This document shows, piece after piece, positions 15,594 to 38,194 of a stretch of 40,646 nucleotides of DNA. Every line of letters starts with the position of its first letter. The stretch's first letter is position 1. The notes below the pieces were generated by a model. It saw only the letters and a program-made list of their open reading frames with translations, did no database searches and was not told where the DNA came from. A program made the position numbers and the translations under genes. The DNA comes from a virus: positions 1 through 40,646 of the IMG/VR virus record IMGVR_UViG_3300042519_001561; one strand, given 5' to 3'.

Positions 15594-15613
15594 CAACTAC
15601 AAGGAGTGTCCTC

Positions 15614-15847
15614 GTGACCGTAGAAAAATGTATGTATCAAGTAACAAAGCAACTTCCAGTTGATGATGGTTACTTGGCTGTTGGCGAAATTGTTGATGCT
15701 TCTGGTTGGCGTAATGTCAAGGCGTTGGTCGCGGGGCGTTATTTAGTGCCTTTGACCTCTGTCTATGTGAAGCAAGACGATGCGTTGGAAACCAAAGTGG
15801 TTAAAGCCAAGGCTGTTCGTCCTGTTGGAGCAACAAAAGAGGCTTAA
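15614..15847 (+). CDS. Small head-module protein
   Basis: 77 residues with a GTG start chosen because AAGGAG lies eight bases upstream. The sequence has one compact region (PVDDGYLAVGEIVDASGWRN, LVAGRYLVPL) and a Lys/Val/Ala-rich tail. Proteins of this size and content occur between capsid and connector genes in siphoviruses, but I cannot name a family or role. Confidence 0.6.
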   Translation: MTVEKCMYQVTKQLPVDDGYLAVGEIVDASGWRNVKALVAGRYLVPLTSVYVKQDDALETKVVKAKAVRPVGATKEA

Positions 15848-16586: not shown

Positions 16587-17021
16587 ATGGCTCGCGCTCC
16601 TATAACGGTCACTCTCGCTGGCTATGGCAAGTTTATGAAAACTATGGGGGATGCACGCCAGTCGGTGTTGCCCATCGCCAAGGAGGTGCTGTACAGCGAG
16701 GCTCAGTCCATTCTGCGCGAAAGTAGGATGGAAGTGCCGTTCCTGTACGGGTTTTTGTCTGCTTCTGGACGGGTGCATGAACCTGTCATTTACAACAACA
16801 AAGCAATGGTAGAGATTTCTTATGGCGGGGCGTCGGTTGACTACGCATTTGACCAGCACGAAAACGAAACATGGAAGCACGCGGCGGGTCGTAAAGCGTT
16901 TTACCTGCGCGACCCTGTTGAAGAGGCTCGTAAAGGCTTTGGTGGGAGGCTTCAAAGGCAGATGCAACGGCTTCTGTACGCTCGTGGCGGGCATCAGGCA
17001 GGGCAAGAGGAGCAGATATGA
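16587..17021 (+). CDS. HK97 gp10-like tail connector protein
   Basis: 144 residues. Family features are visible: an N-terminal helix (KFMKTMGDARQSVLPIAKEVL), a middle strand reading PVIYNNKAMVEISYGG, the YAFDQHENETWKH segment and a basic C-terminal helix (RLQRQMQRLLYARG). HK97 gp10-type proteins act at the head-tail joint or in tail completion. The gene ends four bases inside the next one. Confidence 0.7.
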   Translation: MARAPITVTLAGYGKFMKTMGDARQSVLPIAKEVLYSEAQSILRESRMEVPFLYGFLSASGRVHEPVIYNNKAMVEISYGGASVDYAFDQHENETWKHAAGRKAFYLRDPVEEARKGFGGRLQRQMQRLLYARGGHQAGQEEQI

Positions 17022-17413
17022 CCGTCCTTGATGCGTTAGGTAATTACCTTGTCTCAAACGGTATTGGGACTTTGGCTACAACGATTTTTTTGGCTCGGAT
17101 GCCTGATTCCCCTGATGCTTGTGTGACTCTGTACGAGTCGCAAGGGGCAGGTGGGGCTAGTACCTTCGGTGCAGGGGTTACGGCGTTTGATGTGCCTCGT
17201 ATCCGTGTTTTGTGCCGTGCTGGGCGTAACGACTATCAGATTGCTCGCGCGAAGGCTGTGGATGTCCGCAATTTGCTGGGCGCTGTCCGCAAAACGACCC
17301 TTTCTGGTGTCGGGATTTTGACGATTTTGGCGACCAGTGAGGTGTACCCGATGGGGCGCGACGGCGATGACCGTCCAATTATCGGATGCGATTACAGCGT
17401 ATGGCTGTCGTAG
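17018..17413 (+). CDS. Tail terminator protein
   Basis: 131 residues, GAGGAG ribosome site inside the preceding gene. The order DALGNYLVSNGIG, TIFLARMPDSPDACVTLYES, VPRIRVLCRAGRNDYQIARAKAVD, then a short C-terminal strand pair (GILTILATSEVYPMGRDGDDR) is typical of tail terminator/minor capsid proteins that cap the tail tube and join it to the head. Position before the tube genes agrees. Confidence 0.68.
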   Translation: MTVLDALGNYLVSNGIGTLATTIFLARMPDSPDACVTLYESQGAGGASTFGAGVTAFDVPRIRVLCRAGRNDYQIARAKAVDVRNLLGAVRKTTLSGVGILTILATSEVYPMGRDGDDRPIIGCDYSVWLS

Positions 17414-17547
17414 CAAATCCTTATGGGGGTTCGGTTTCAGAGGATAAAGAGCCACGATGCTGGCGATGCAAGAAGATGCTGGCGGTTCTGGTCACGCGCC
17501 CGTGGGTAATTATCTGCCATCGGTGTAAAGCCAAAAACGGAGCATGA
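17401..17547 (+). CDS. Com-like zinc-ribbon mini-protein
   Basis: A 48-residue frame beginning 13 bases inside the tail terminator gene. Cys20-x2-Cys23 and Cys39-x2-Cys42 frame a short hydrophobic stretch: CWRCKKML, then VIICHRCKAKNG. This closely matches the zinc finger of phage Mu Com (C-x-x-C-NKLL, then I-x-C-P-R-C), an RNA-binding translational activator of mom; Com-like proteins are also found in other phages and prophages. No mom-like gene lies in the window, so its target here is unknown. Overlap with the upstream gene suggests coupled expression. Confidence 0.6.
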   Translation: MAVVANPYGGSVSEDKEPRCWRCKKMLAVLVTRPWVIICHRCKAKNGA

Positions 17548-17605: not shown

Positions 17606-17724
17606 ACAATAATCGGTCGGGAGTTGTTTCAAGTCTGCGGATTTTGGAACCTTTGTTGGCATTGAGGTGCGCTCTTTAGAGCCAGTTGTACTGGTAGTTG
17701 TATTCGCCTATTTAGGAGGCGCTG

Positions 17725-18228
17725 TTGTTAAAACGCTTATTACTTTGTTGTTGTTTGTTTTGGGGCACTTTGAGTGCTCCCGTATTTGCAGGGGCTTCAC
17801 AGCCCCCTGTGACCTCTGTGAAGGTGGTCAAAAGGTCTGTGTCAATCCCATCTGACAAAACTCATCGCTGTCCCAAGTGGGAACCTTTGATGAAGAAGGT
17901 GGGTTTAGAGCCGATTGAGGTGTTCAGTTATTTGGCTTGGCGTGAGTCGCGTTGTACGCCCAAAGCGGTCGGGTGGAACTATCGCAAAGGCAAGAGCGTC
18001 AAGGACTGCAAATTGATGCCTTACGATGCGTACAGGAAGTGTCCTGCTGTGAAATCGTATGACTCTGGACTTTGGCAGGTCAATTCAAGTTGGAAAACTG
18101 TGACAGCGCAGGTGTGCAAGTCTCCACAAGGCGACATGACCGTGCTGTTTGACCCTGTGTGCAACGCAAAAGTGGCTAAGTACCTCTTAGACAATGGTGG
18201 ATTCAATCATTGGTCGTTGAAAAGATAA
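17725..18228 (+). CDS. Secreted lytic transglycosylase (SLT/lysozyme-like)
   Basis: 167 residues. The TTG start is chosen because TAGGAGG lies just upstream and yields a signal peptide: LKRLLL, then CCCLFWGTLSAPVFA with likely cleavage after Ala. The mature part has a lysozyme-like pattern: FSYLAWRESRC with candidate catalytic Glu74, then SYDSGLWQVNSSW, and a C-terminal YLLDNGGFNHWS. Several cysteines (RCTPK, DCKLM, KCPAV, VCKSP, VCNAK) suggest disulfides, in keeping with an exported enzyme. It would cut peptidoglycan glycan strands. It is placed between head-tail joining and tail-tube genes, away from the lysis cassette at 35572. Confidence 0.72.
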   Translation: MLKRLLLCCCLFWGTLSAPVFAGASQPPVTSVKVVKRSVSIPSDKTHRCPKWEPLMKKVGLEPIEVFSYLAWRESRCTPKAVGWNYRKGKSVKDCKLMPYDAYRKCPAVKSYDSGLWQVNSSWKTVTAQVCKSPQGDMTVLFDPVCNAKVAKYLLDNGGFNHWSLKR

Positions 18229-18240
18229 CTACGGTTTAGC

Positions 18241-18259
18241 CCAAGCCAACTGGCTTTGG
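18241..18259 (+). other. Hairpin in the gap after the transglycosylase
   Basis: CCAAGCC-AACT-GGCTTTGG forms a seven-pair stem with one bulged T. No T-run follows, so it is not a standard terminator. Confidence 0.35.
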
Positions 18260-18271
18260 TAGTAAATTCAG

Positions 18272-18346
18272 ATGCGTAAGTGTCCTTGTGACCTCGGCTT
18301 TCACCGTTCGTGCCCTCAGTGGTCTGTGGGAACTGAGGTGCTTTGA
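18272..18346 (+). CDS. Possible 24-residue Cys/His mini-protein
   Basis: ATG-initiated frame in an otherwise empty 140-base gap, encoding MRKCPCDLGFHRSCPQWSV and a short tail. The clustered Cys and His residues suggest a metal site. There is no clear ribosome site and no family, so this may be non-coding. Confidence 0.2.
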   Translation: MRKCPCDLGFHRSCPQWSVGTEVL

Positions 18347-18368
18347 CGCCTTGTTTTCAGGAGTAGAA

Positions 18369-18608
18369 ATGCCTAAATATCGTGTTTTGCAGGGGATTGA
18401 CTTCCCTCCTGACCGCCGCGTTGAAGCGGGTGCAATCGTGGACGACTTACCTCCTAAAGCAATCAAATGGCTCCGCGAGCAAGGTTTGATTGAGTTGGAA
18501 GATGCGAATAGCGCGGACGAATTTACTCCAGTCAAAGATGTTGTGGCGTCAAAAAAGACCCCTGATGTCGTTGCTGATGTTGTTCTTGAAGAAACGGTGG
18601 AAATCTAA
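18369..18608 (+). CDS. Small conserved tail-region protein
   Basis: 79 residues. The ATG at 18369 is preferred over upstream starts because CAGGAG lies at the right distance. The pattern KYRVLQGIDFPPDRRVEAGAIVDDLPPKAIKWLREQGLIE is recurrent in actinophage proteins near tail genes (a small barrel plus a helix ending in WLxxxGxIE); the remainder is a Val/Asp-rich tail. The function is not established. It overlaps the first tail-tube gene by one base. Confidence 0.65.
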   Translation: MPKYRVLQGIDFPPDRRVEAGAIVDDLPPKAIKWLREQGLIELEDANSADEFTPVKDVVASKKTPDVVADVVLEETVEI

Positions 18609-19339
18609 TGGCTTTTATTCATGGTAAATCAGTGTCAGTGCTTCACGGCGTTACGGATTTGAGTTCTTTTTTGAACGAAGCCAGCACCGCGGTACAGGTA
18701 GATACTGCCGAAACAACCACTTTTGGTGCCGCTGGTGGCGGAAAAACCTACATTACTGGTCTAAAAGACGGCACTTTGTCGTGCTCAGGTTTGTTTGACG
18801 GTGCTTCTACAGCAGTTGATGCTGTGTTGACAGCAAGTTTGGGTTCCGATTCTTTGTCCCCTGTAACTTACGCGCCAGAAGGCTTTGCCATTGGCTCGCG
18901 CGTTGCTGTTTTGAAGGCTAAAAGCACTTCTTACCAAGTTTCTTCACCTGTTGGCGATGTGGTGTCGGTTTCTTACGACGCTCAGGCTGATGGAGGCATT
19001 GACGCAGGCGTTTCTTTGTGCTTGTTGGCATCTGTATCTTCTACAACCAACTCCACAAGTCACGACAACGCCGCTTCTAGCGCAAATGGCGGATTGGCGC
19101 AGTTGCATGTGACGGCGAACACCCGCGATGTGGGCACAGTTTTTAAGGTTCAGCATTCAGCCGACAACTCAACTTGGGCTGACCTTGCAACTTTTACAAC
19201 CGTAGCAACGGTTGTTACAGCATCGGAAAGAGTCGCTATCGCTAGTGGCACTACCGTCAACCGTTATCTTCGGGCACAGGCAACTTTGTCCGCTGGTACG
19301 GGTTCCATCACCTATCAAATTTCCTTTTCTCGGAGGTAA
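18608..19339 (+). CDS. Major tail tube protein 1, with C-terminal beta domain
   Basis: 243 residues. Residues 1-140 are a tail-tube domain: FIHGKSVSVLHGVTDLSSFLNEASTAVQVDT, AETTTFGAAGGGKTYITGLKDG, SYQVSSPVGDVVSVSYDAQADGG. It is clearly homologous to the next gene. The extra 100 residues (VTANTRDVGTVFKVQHSADNSTWADLATFTT, then NRYLRAQATLSAGTGSITYQISFSRR) look like an Ig-like or BNR-type surface domain that would decorate the tail shaft. Tube proteins stack as hexameric rings around the tape measure. Confidence 0.75.
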   Translation: MAFIHGKSVSVLHGVTDLSSFLNEASTAVQVDTAETTTFGAAGGGKTYITGLKDGTLSCSGLFDGASTAVDAVLTASLGSDSLSPVTYAPEGFAIGSRVAVLKAKSTSYQVSSPVGDVVSVSYDAQADGGIDAGVSLCLLASVSSTTNSTSHDNAASSANGGLAQLHVTANTRDVGTVFKVQHSADNSTWADLATFTTVATVVTASERVAIASGTTVNRYLRAQATLSAGTGSITYQISFSRR

Positions 19340-19344
19340 CACAC

Positions 19345-19764
19345 ATGGCTTTTGCACATGGTAAATCAGCAGTATTCAAATTGGACGATTCGGGTGGCAC
19401 CCTTCGTACCTTGTCAAGTTATGTCTCAGAGGTCAGTTTGCCTCGCAACATTGACACGGCAGAAACAACAACATTCGGCGCGTCAGGCAATGCCAAGACC
19501 TACATCGTAGGTTTGTCGGATGCGACTATCGGCGTGTCAGGGTTTTTTGACGCTACTGCCGATGGTTATTTGGCTGGCGTAGTCGGTAATGCCGCCACCT
19601 TGTCATTTGAAATTGGACCTGAAGGTAGTGGCGTGGGTGCCATTAAGTACACAGGCGAGTGTATTATGACCTCGTACCAAGTTGGTTCTTCCGTTGGAGA
19701 TGTTGTATCTGCTTCGGCTGACTTTCAAGTTACAGGTGCCATCACCCGTGGCACTTACTCATAA
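19345..19764 (+). CDS. Major tail tube protein 2
   Basis: 139 residues behind CGGAGG. It parallels the N-terminal domain of the upstream protein: AFAHGKSAVFKLDDSGGTLR, IDTAETTTFGASGNAKTYIVGLSDATI, SYQVGSSVGDVVSASADFQVTG. It lacks the C-terminal Ig-like extension. Having two tube paralogues side by side suggests a mixed tube or a major/minor pair, as known for phages with two tail-tube versions. Confidence 0.75.
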   Translation: MAFAHGKSAVFKLDDSGGTLRTLSSYVSEVSLPRNIDTAETTTFGASGNAKTYIVGLSDATIGVSGFFDATADGYLAGVVGNAATLSFEIGPEGSGVGAIKYTGECIMTSYQVGSSVGDVVSASADFQVTGAITRGTYS

Positions 19765-19781: not shown

Positions 19782-20165
19782 GTGTCCCTTCGTGACCGCA
19801 TTTTAGCAGTAGATGATTCCCAGAGAGAACAACTTGTTGTTCCTGAATGGGGTATGACCATTGAAATCAGAGGTATGAGTGGTGCTAGTCGCGCTTCAAT
19901 TACCCAAGACGCCGCCGACAACAACGGCACTATCAACTTCGGCAAAATGATGCCTGAAATCATCGTCGGATGCGTATTTGACCCTGAGACTGGTGAGCAA
20001 GTGTTTACTGCCGATGACCGTTCTCTGGTGATGGAGAAGTCGGGCGCGGCGTTGGACAAGATTGTTACTCTTGCTATGGCTTTGTCAGGTTTCGGCGAAA
20101 AAGCGGTGGATGAAGCGGGAAAAGGCTCCTTGTCAATAGCGAGCGCCGATTCCTCTTTAACCTAG
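19782..20165 (+). CDS. Tail assembly chaperone (G-type)
   Basis: 127 residues from GTG 19782 (AGGAG upstream). It is acidic, with LRDRILAVDDSQREQLVVPEWGMTIEIRGMSGASRASITQDAA, the usual opening of tail assembly chaperones in actinophages. It precedes the tape measure gene and contains the slippery site near its 3' end. It binds the tape measure during tube assembly and is probably absent from the finished virion. Confidence 0.75.
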   Translation: MSLRDRILAVDDSQREQLVVPEWGMTIEIRGMSGASRASITQDAADNNGTINFGKMMPEIIVGCVFDPETGEQVFTADDRSLVMEKSGAALDKIVTLAMALSGFGEKAVDEAGKGSLSIASADSSLT

Positions 20166-36768: not shown

Positions 36769-37002
36769 ATGGGGTTACTTGACGATTTGATGGCGGCTAA
36801 TGAAAGCCGTAAAAGCAAATGTTTAATGGGACAGACGATTGACGCTATGAGCGACTTGGACAGGGGCGAATTTCTTAACGCCTTGGAGTCGGGTCATTTT
36901 AGTTCTTCTACTGTGTCAACTGTTTTGAAAAACAACGGTTACATTGTGTCGGAGGACACAGTTCGTCGTCATGTACAAGGCAGGTGTCGTTGTGGGCTTT
37001 AA
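36769..37002 (+). CDS. Small HTH protein (terminase-small-subunit-like)
   Basis: 77 residues, GGAGG ribosome site. The pattern SKCLMGQTIDAMSDLDRGEFLNALESGHFSSSTVSTVLKNNGYIVSEDTVRRHVQGRC has a C-terminal helix-turn-helix (STVSTVLKNNGY, then EDTVRRHVQG) and a C-x-C end. Similar small proteins in actinophages are annotated as HTH or terminase small-subunit-like. The next gene overlaps its 3' end by 32 bases. A role in DNA binding is likely; packaging or regulation cannot be distinguished here. Confidence 0.55.
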   Translation: MGLLDDLMAANESRKSKCLMGQTIDAMSDLDRGEFLNALESGHFSSSTVSTVLKNNGYIVSEDTVRRHVQGRCRCGL

Positions 37003-38194
37003 GGATGATTTTGATTCGTCGGCATCTGAGTCGGTGCCAGACAAAGAAAAAGCGTGGGTAGAAATCACCTCCGATGGTGGCGAGATTTCTACTGGGCAGT
37101 TGTCAGTTGAATTAGACGGTAACTGGGATTCCATTTTGCTTGGGTTTAACTTAGACCCAAATGTCTTTGAGGTTGTGGACGACACCGTTCGGTGTTCTAA
37201 GTGGCAGTCATCTAAGCGTCTTGAGAATGGCGATAGAGATTTGATTTGGTTGTTTTCGTATCGCGCGAGGTTTCGCCGTCGGCAAAGCAATGTTATATCT
37301 GACGAGGATATTGATGCGATACGGCAGGGCGTGGCTAAATGGCGTCCTTCAGCGCCCAAAAAGCAGGTTTCTGATGCTGTTCCTTGCACCTTTGTAGTGT
37401 GTTTGGCGGACTGGCAATTAGGTAAATCGGCTGGCGGTGGTGTTGATGCGACTGTCGCCTATGTCATCAAATCTTTTAATGATGTGATTACGCGCGTTGC
37501 TGACCTTCGCAAGATGGGGCGAAACATTGAGAACATTGTGATTGCCAATATGGGCGACCCGATTGAGGGTTGTGGCGACCATTACGCGTCGCAGACTTTT
37601 ACTGTTGAGTTGAATCAGCGTCAGCAGTTGTTGTTGGCTTTGGATTTGTGGACGCAGGCTGTTGGTCGGTGGGCTGTGCTCGCTGAAGGTGCAGAGTTTT
37701 TGTCGGTGTTGTGCAATCATGGCGAGTGGATGCGTAGAGGTTCTAAGTCCATTACCAGTGATTCGGATAATGCTGGCGCGTTTTTGGCTGAGGCGTTGCA
37801 GAGAATCCTTGCTGACCGTGACGAGTTGCAACATATTAAGTGGTCAATCCCACATGATGAGATGACGATTACAAGCGTTCTGTCGGGTGTGAATGTTGCT
37901 TTTACGCACGGGCATACCATTCCCTCTCCTGCAAAAGAGGCTGATTGGATTAGGGGTCAGAGTATTCGGATTTTGCGCGAGGAAGGCAGAGAGCCTGATT
38001 TGTGGGTTACTGCTCATCGCCATCATTTGTCTGTTGCTGATTTTGGTGCTTACACTCGTATCCAGTGCCCTACTTTAGACGGTGGTTCTAAATGGTGGAC
38101 AGACAGGTCTGGTTTGTGGTCTAGGCGCGGTACTTTAACTTTCACTGTTGGCACTCATGCTGATTTGGGTTGGGCTGACTTAGCGGTGCTATGA
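36971..38194 (+). CDS. Calcineurin-like metallophosphoesterase
   Basis: 407 residues using ATG 36971 (overlapping the HTH gene); starts at 36944 or a little downstream are also possible. The C-terminal 270 residues show the five metallophosphoesterase motifs in order: ADWQLGK (Asp147), MGDPIEG (Asp196), CNHGEW (Asn249-His250), THGH (His313, His315), and AHRHH (His349, His351). The N-terminal 130 residues are unrecognised. Such phage enzymes may be nucleases or nucleotide/phosphate hydrolases; proximity to the recombination genes favours nucleic-acid work. The first motif is D-x-Q rather than the common D-x-H, which may change metal choice. Confidence 0.72.
   Translation: MYKAGVVVGFKDDFDSSASESVPDKEKAWVEITSDGGEISTGQLSVELDGNWDSILLGFNLDPNVFEVVDDTVRCSKWQSSKRLENGDRDLIWLFSYRARFRRRQSNVISDEDIDAIRQGVAKWRPSAPKKQVSDAVPCTFVVCLADWQLGKSAGGGVDATVAYVIKSFNDVITRVADLRKMGRNIENIVIANMGDPIEGCGDHYASQTFTVELNQRQQLLLALDLWTQAVGRWAVLAEGAEFLSVLCNHGEWMRRGSKSITSDSDNAGAFLAEALQRILADRDELQHIKWSIPHDEMTITSVLSGVNVAFTHGHTIPSPAKEADWIRGQSIRILREEGREPDLWVTAHRHHLSVADFGAYTRIQCPTLDGGSKWWTDRSGLWSRRGTLTFTVGTHADLGWADLAVL

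Follow-up and report, generated by a model that had tools for sequence, protein, structure and literature searches.

The 48-residue zinc ribbon protein encoded beside the tail terminator gene (TT) of this phage binds, with a probability of about three in four, short bipartite RNA elements termed here GU elements, and thereby controls the translation of virion genes of its own phage. The stretch of DNA analysed, referred to as the window, is an entire IMG/VR virus record of 40,646 nt that holds a siphophage tail region and encodes a capsid protein with 55% identity to the capsid of Arthrobacter phages Ottawa and Kharcho. In the proposed mechanism, the Com-like protein would be made together with the tail terminator and would bind the GU elements, which would fold as hairpins once bound, and binding would alter the translation of g15614, of the unit formed by g18368 and the tail tube genes, and of the gene at the tail assembly chaperone position (TAC). 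Judged from the comparisons below, what is new here is a Com-type ribbon with a putative GU-type operator and candidate targets among the virion genes, distinct from the Com-mom pair of phage Mu. The features concerned are collected in Table 1.

Table 1. Positions in the window of the Com-like gene, its neighbours, the GU elements and a recurring peptide motif
Feature	Position	Strand	Basis or remark
ASFASRSEAARYAAxxRWKGN copies	542, 1954, 3771, 4822, 7395, 9242, 10250, 11356	+	Translated ORFs
GU element at g15614, GUGUCCUCGUGACC	15606..15619	+	3' half holds the g15614 GTG start (15614-15616)
g15614, small protein gene 3' of the capsid gene, candidate target	15614..15847	+	ORF list
Tail terminator gene (TT)	17018..17413	+	PF12691, E 3e-13; conserved upstream neighbour, overlaps the Com-like gene
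Com-like zinc ribbon gene	17401..17547	+	48 aa, ATG start; second in-frame ATG at 17386
Lysozyme-like gene (SLT), 3' of the Com-like gene and 5' of the leader	17725..18228	+	PF18896/PF01464
Leader of g18368 and the tail tube genes, 140 nt, two GU elements	18229..18368	+	Leader alignment
Leader GU element 1, GUGUCCUUGUGACC	18280..18293	+	Leader scan
Leader GU element 2, GUGCCCUCAGUGGUC	18310..18324	+	Leader scan; one G-U pair
g18368, small protein gene ahead of the tail tube genes	18369..18608	+	ORF list, synteny
Major tail protein gene 1 (MTP1)	18608..19339	+	phrog_9522, E 5e-60
Major tail protein gene 2 (MTP2)	19345..19764	+	phrog_10528, E 8e-44; PF06199
TAC GU element, GUGUCCCUUCGUGACC	19782..19797	+	Begins exactly at the GTG start of the TAC-position gene
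Gene at tail assembly chaperone position (TAC)	19782..20165	+	Weak Phage_TAC_1, E 0.003, below cut-off

The Com-like gene is real and under selection at the protein level. A sequence-only reading of the window had described an open frame of 48 residues overlapping the TT gene, and the frame, an overlap of 13 nt and the many relatives bear this out; the residues that it named, including a KxKN tail, are present as C20-W-R-C23, 15 further residues, C39-H-R-C42 and then KAKN. Relatives were found in IMG/VR at 42 loci with a single-protein query and at 67 with an alignment query, and at least 507 were confirmed in a wider scan, while a scan of genome contigs for the protein gave one 11-residue match, in Paenibacillus. 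Homologues with broken frames or missing cysteines, which the same reading had named as evidence against the gene, were looked for: all four cysteines, in the motif PRC..C-x15-C..C...N, are kept in 73/73 hmmsearch matches (E <= 1e-3), a conservation that is partly selected for because the matches were picked by profile score. These 73 derive from the subset of loci used for this count, some of them duplicated, and comprise 45 sequences distinct as DNA, in which pN is lower than pS in 990 of 990 pairs.

The surroundings of the gene are equally stable. Specifically, wherever the genes were detected, divergent loci repeat the order TT, Com-like gene, optional cargo, a leader of about 140 nt, g18368, MTP1, MTP2, TAC and tape measure. 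A search that started from the tail tube protein, and so did not depend on the Com-like gene, left 80 loci; all 52 of them that show TT and more than 1,500 nt upstream carry the Com-like gene, many of these contigs being closely related, and the gene ends 133-445 nt past TT (53 loci). The order is retained in Arthrobacter phages Ottawa, Kovu and Waltz, with about 10-13 kb separating the Com-like gene from the tube genes, and the TAC-position genes of these three phages are annotated as tail assembly chaperones. Four loci hold the gene in another setting: by Pfam, it precedes the terminase large subunit gene in L072 and L076 and the portal gene in L074, and in L075 it is flanked by two long genes that have no Pfam match, where a terminase or portal reading was dropped for lack of Pfam support. 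The gene names "phosphoesterase" (window) and "ADP-ribosyltransferase" were rejected as lacking Pfam support.

The slot taken in the window by the lysozyme-like gene is variable among relatives. A 62-codon GTG frame with a hydrophobic stretch (17667-17855) overlaps the start of that gene and is possibly holin-like, possibly a product of chance. In other lineages a cargo gene lies between the Com-like gene and the tube genes (L034 6166-7506, L042 1852-3192), and a window gene at 36944-38194 resembles it by eye; Pfam gave nothing for this window gene and nothing above the cut-off for that of L034, and the gene in the cargo slot of L071 has a weak match to Metallophos_2 (E 0.007, below cut-off). 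Farther away, upstream of the capsid gene, a peptide motif of the approximate form ASFASRSEAARYAAxxRWKGN recurs in eight copies, one more divergent, across seven large ORFs; the string RSEAARYAA had no match in the literature searched, and the recurring motif could be a common tag by which, for instance, proteins are packaged into the capsid.

By its profile kinship, the 48-residue protein is classed as a Com-type zinc ribbon of the PF10122 superfamily, though it falls below the Pfam cut-off itself; the assignment follows from relatives that match Com families and from a profile-profile match to canonical Com. A search with the Com family profile, which the sequence-only reading had proposed, gave a divided answer: the window protein has no PF10122 match in Pfam, but its relative gp5 of Arthrobacter phage Ottawa reaches 23.6 bits against a cut-off of 22.9, with PF10122 as its best family. 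Of nine Com-like relatives, this one lies above the PF10122 cut-off, five below it and three have no match, and in 18 whole records the family is matched in five, once above the cut-off. Against phrog_6417 ("translational regulator") the window protein is weak (E 0.21), while Ottawa gp5 (7.6e-7), L034 (5.3e-6) and L075 (1.4e-6) match. Moreover, hhalign joined a 29-member Com-like profile to nine canonical Com proteins with a probability of 97.3% and E 2.5e-11 over 33 columns, so that the Com-like reading is supported both by this comparison and by the family matches of the relatives. The feature that marks membership of Com, CxxC-x15/16-CxxC with an LLA...I.C.RCK core, is present, and the four-cysteine ribbon CxxC...KLLA...I.C.RCK..N is common to Com of Mu and its relatives (PF10122, phrog_13819, phrog_6417). 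The window type differs from Com of Mu in an N-terminal N(P/A)YG stretch, a TRPW motif and the fixed place of its gene beside TT. An AlphaFold2 model of the protein has a mean pLDDT of 58, and the best hit of a PDB sequence search with the Com-like profile has an E of only 0.11. As far as sequence can tell, the protein works like Com.

The RNA site of canonical Com offers a second line of comparison. According to Nowacka et al. 2019 (PMC6483171), SELEX with Com of Haemophilus sputorum selected GAGNNCC-N2-3-GAGNNCC, a hairpin site in which the GA is accessible and a stem of 3-4 nt is closed at the loop by a C-G pair; the site of Mu Com is given as GAAUGCCUGCGAGCAUCCC and overlaps the start codon of mom, which Mu Com activates. 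The same paper reports that Com prefers hairpins over duplex RNA, a point on which an earlier study disagreed, and describes the structure of the Com-RNA complex as still to be determined (PMC6483171). Rewritten as GA-[4 bp]-C-N2-3-GA-[4 bp]-C, the Com site has the same layout as the GU element, which carries GU and mostly 3 bp. In layout both are bipartite, G-X-[stem]-C-N2-4-G-X-[stem]-C, with the stem putative in the GU form; both frequently come as two copies and lie on the start codon or ahead of it. They differ in that X is U and not A in the window type and its stem mostly 3 bp and not 4. The GU element had been defined before the SELEX motif was known to the author, and the strict scan used at first did not require the final C, which the element model of that time already contained.

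The GA form also accompanies canonical com genes in their genomes. Of 12 canonical com loci, 11 have it between com and the start region of the next gene, 6 of these with two copies (tandem spacing 22-25 nt), and none has the GU form there; as the three Mcat loci are near-copies, and UMP151 and Phipami28 likewise, the independent cases number fewer than 11. The next gene is mom in Mu, JD024 and PAN70 (by annotation; PF25680 for PAN70), a methylase in B3, UMP151, Phipami28, Bise, Chuche, Mcat1 and Mcat6 (by annotation or Pfam; PF02086 for UMP151, Mcat1 and Mcat6) and hypothetical in Mcat3 and Komp_PAO1_1; the com-methylase locus of Escherichia phage Chuche has neither the GA nor the GU form. 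The 11 GA-bearing loci (L043, L079, L080, L081, L082 and L289-L294) extend the SELEX-derived site to com-methylase pairs. These pairs (Pseudomonas B3, UMP151, Phipami28 and Bise; Moraxella Mcat) have in common with the window a Com-type ribbon and one or two elements before the regulated gene, and differ in that the regulated gene is a DNA methylase and the elements are GA-type. In Pseudomonas phage Komp_PAO1_1 (L292 1804-2925), the com-like gene has a GA element, and behind it come a small hypothetical gene and one for a protein of 373 aa whose acetyltransferase-type matches are weak; the latter could be an unrecognised modification gene.

The GU element was recognised from aligned leaders and reads GU-[3 bp]-C-N2-4-GU-[3 bp]-C. 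The window alone holds four on the + strand (15606, 18280, 18310, 19782) and none on the other, a count that is weak evidence for a single genome because dinucleotide shuffles of the whole window have a mean of 1.5 and reach up to 4. Across relatives, 49 of 50 non-redundant leaders (72 unique leaders collapsed at 90% identity) carry the element and 28 carry at least two copies, set against 0/50 on the minus strand, 1, 0 and 0 of 50 for the GA, GC and GG forms, and a mean of 0.42 and a maximum of 3 of 50 in 100 shuffles of the leaders; in an earlier scan, 4/52 leaders were without it. The start of the TAC-position gene has a GU element in 47/54 non-redundant regions and none in 7, and g15614 has one in 28/36 relatives and none in 8. 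Taking the three sites together, 142 copies lie in 11,647 nt, and the remaining 409,844 nt of the same 50 loci hold 9, a ratio that is descriptive since the three sites were chosen after a listing that covered many of these loci. The strict element is absent from the leaders of Ottawa, Kovu and Waltz. The three Arthrobacter phages with a Com-like gene keep the element at the TAC start with different encoded N-terminal residues, which suggests selection at the RNA level at this site; in the family of the window, the TAC element also codes for conserved residues. An Rfam search of the window at the gathering threshold gave no match.

Compensatory pairing suggests that the GU element is an RNA hairpin. 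With the pattern GTN3C-N2-4-GTN3C, which imposes no pairing rule, 70/100 matches pair at all three positions, whereas exchanging the 3' halves leaves on average 31, and never more than 46, of 100 fully paired (20,000 permutations, which like the other pairing controls ignore relatedness and shared ancestry). The stems seen are GUC/GAC, GCC/GGC, GCC/GGU, ACC/GGU, GCG/CGC and GGC/GCC. Among pairing-selected elements, 32 cells show a change in both partners (9.0 ± 2.2 in shuffled ones), and sliding the partner breaks the signal; as that table was built on elements selected for pairing, the weight is placed on the unselected 70/100. Energy folding of the leaders is weak, with the stem in the minimum-energy structure for 12/77 elements and a mean pair probability of 0.14, and when 17 leaders are folded to a consensus, element 2 forms its stem and element 1 pairs otherwise; folding alone does not predict the elements, so the stems are read from the compensatory changes. 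A stem of 3 bp would need the Com-like protein to hold it.

Gene and element are present or absent together in the small set examined. Two relatives lacking the gene were compared: in ValentiniPuff the capsid, neck, tail tube and tape measure genes match in order and TT and TAC by position only, with no Com-like gene and a gap of 16 nt where the leader would be, and in RDJL Phi 1 the capsid gene alone matches and the Com-like gene is likewise absent. For both whole records, tblastn gave no match to the Com-like gene at E <= 10, the Com-like profile found nothing better than E 0.16 and 0.013, respectively, in their 40 kb parts, and each has two GU matches in 40 kb, none at tail genes. In the reverse direction, a scan of IMG/VR with one tandem GCC-type pattern returned 10 stretches, six in the leader of g18368 and MTP and four elsewhere (two of them identical), which look coding-like by eye. 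The leader cases in records of 24-61 kb have a Com-like gene in 3/3, and the three contigs of 4-13 kb without one start 45, 340 and 909 nt before the element, so that the place of the gene is not covered. At L072, in its other gene setting, two strict GU elements lie directly 3' of the Com-like gene.

This joint occurrence speaks against a different account, held to be unlikely, in which the GU elements function on their own or for another RNA-binding protein of phage or host, and the Com-like protein, though encoded nearby, has some other role, such as that of a small virion or assembly factor tied to TT. Its place beside TT in 52/52 loci, kept even with the chaperone-position element more than 10 kb off in Arthrobacter phages, would suit such a role, but the layout of the element equals that of the selected Com site, and the GA form accompanies the canonical com genes. 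Binding of the GU elements by the Com-like protein itself remains the preferred reading.

As to the effect of binding, we lean modestly towards activation, by analogy with Mu Com, whose site also overlaps a start codon and which activates mom from there. A repressor is the main alternative, if a tentative one: bound at the start codons of TAC and g15614, the protein would block ribosomes and balance the amounts of virion proteins, like the coat proteins of ssRNA phages. The GU element begins at the position of the window's start codon in 42/54 TAC regions, and that of g15614 in the window encloses the start codon and overlaps a Shine-Dalgarno-like AAGGAG by one base, as repression would have it; conversely, the leader elements sit about 53-102 nt 5' of g18368, and Mu Com, according to PMC6483171, is an activator despite a site that overlaps the start codon of mom. 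A general masking of the ribosome site like the inhibitory structure of Mu was rejected: no Shine-Dalgarno-masking helix emerged in the leaders, where the ribosome-site region has a longest complement of 5.9 nt on average (5.3 nt in shuffled sequences) and of 8-10 nt in some lineages.

An effect on transcription, with the protein influencing termination once bound to the nascent RNA of the leader, is improbable, albeit with some features in its favour. The CGTG(G/C)CC repeats directly after the gene in L072 and L074-L076 run into terminator-like hairpins, and a TANNNT box precedes element 1 in 17/17 aligned leaders; against this, no terminator-like hairpin is seen by eye after the elements of the window leader, and elements at the starts of TAC and g15614 suit translation better. 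The box itself (18263-18268 in the window) is invariant in those 17 leaders, begins about 17 nt 5' of element 1 and may be a promoter element for a transcript starting just before the GU elements. The repeats, CGTG(G/C)CCC in L074 (645-702), L075 (4784-4832) and L076 (419-462), are direct and come straight after the Com-like gene, the second being by eye the 5' arm of the terminator-like hairpin, possibly an RNA switch on termination; no strict GU element follows the gene in these three loci.

Translational control of virion genes has lastly to be weighed against a classic com gene that has its partner, mom or a methylase, at another place in the phage genome. The sequence-only reading had seen no mom-like gene and had offered either a mom-type gene outside the window or a different RNA target. 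Its first observation holds, since Mom (PF25680) is found in 0/18 records, which include the window record in full and the complete genomes of three Arthrobacter phages (most of the remainder are fragments), and on the same count a Mom partner for the window protein was rejected; of the two options, the different target gains from the Com-site-like elements at virion gene starts and the distant mom does not. The record of 40,646 nt may be a fragment, which would leave room for a distant partner, but the window has no strict GA element, and no DNA-modification family was found in six genes adjoining the Com-like gene of relatives (L034, L005, L130, L044 and two of L071), so the classic arrangement is very improbable. 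The gene that follows is lysozyme-like in the window and directly a tail gene in some relatives. Unlike Com of Mu, the window type was found without an adjacent mom or methylase gene, and its candidate targets are virion genes at several places. A Com-like gene among tail genes with no modification gene, together with Com-site-like elements at virion starts, leads to the view that the protein probably regulates virion production.

Partial parallels exist in other phages. In ssRNA phages the coat protein binds a small operator hairpin at a start codon, which is alike in being a start-codon hairpin bound by a phage protein, although protein and phage type are unrelated. Cluster K mycobacteriophages reportedly have start-associated sequences, short repeats at gene starts in an actinobacteriophage, which resemble the GU elements in being short and repeated at gene starts, reportedly differ in sequence and are not known to have a partner protein. 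Literature searches turned up no report of tail genes as the target of a Com-like protein.

Com has hitherto been known as a dedicated switch for one DNA-modification gene. A broader view, somewhat favoured here, is that Mu Com is a special case of a wider system of zinc ribbons and bipartite hairpin operators of GA or GU type, with DNA modification as one branch, and that in a large group of siphophages, including Arthrobacter phages, this system governs, as one small late regulon, how the tail tube, the gene at the chaperone position and a gene on the capsid side are translated. If true, the same pairing of protein and RNA would regulate virion assembly genes in many phages, and a testable operator would partly account for the control that a virion operon has over the amounts or the timing of tail parts. 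The change from A to U in the operator, beside diverged ribbons, would constitute a natural set for learning how Com reads RNA.
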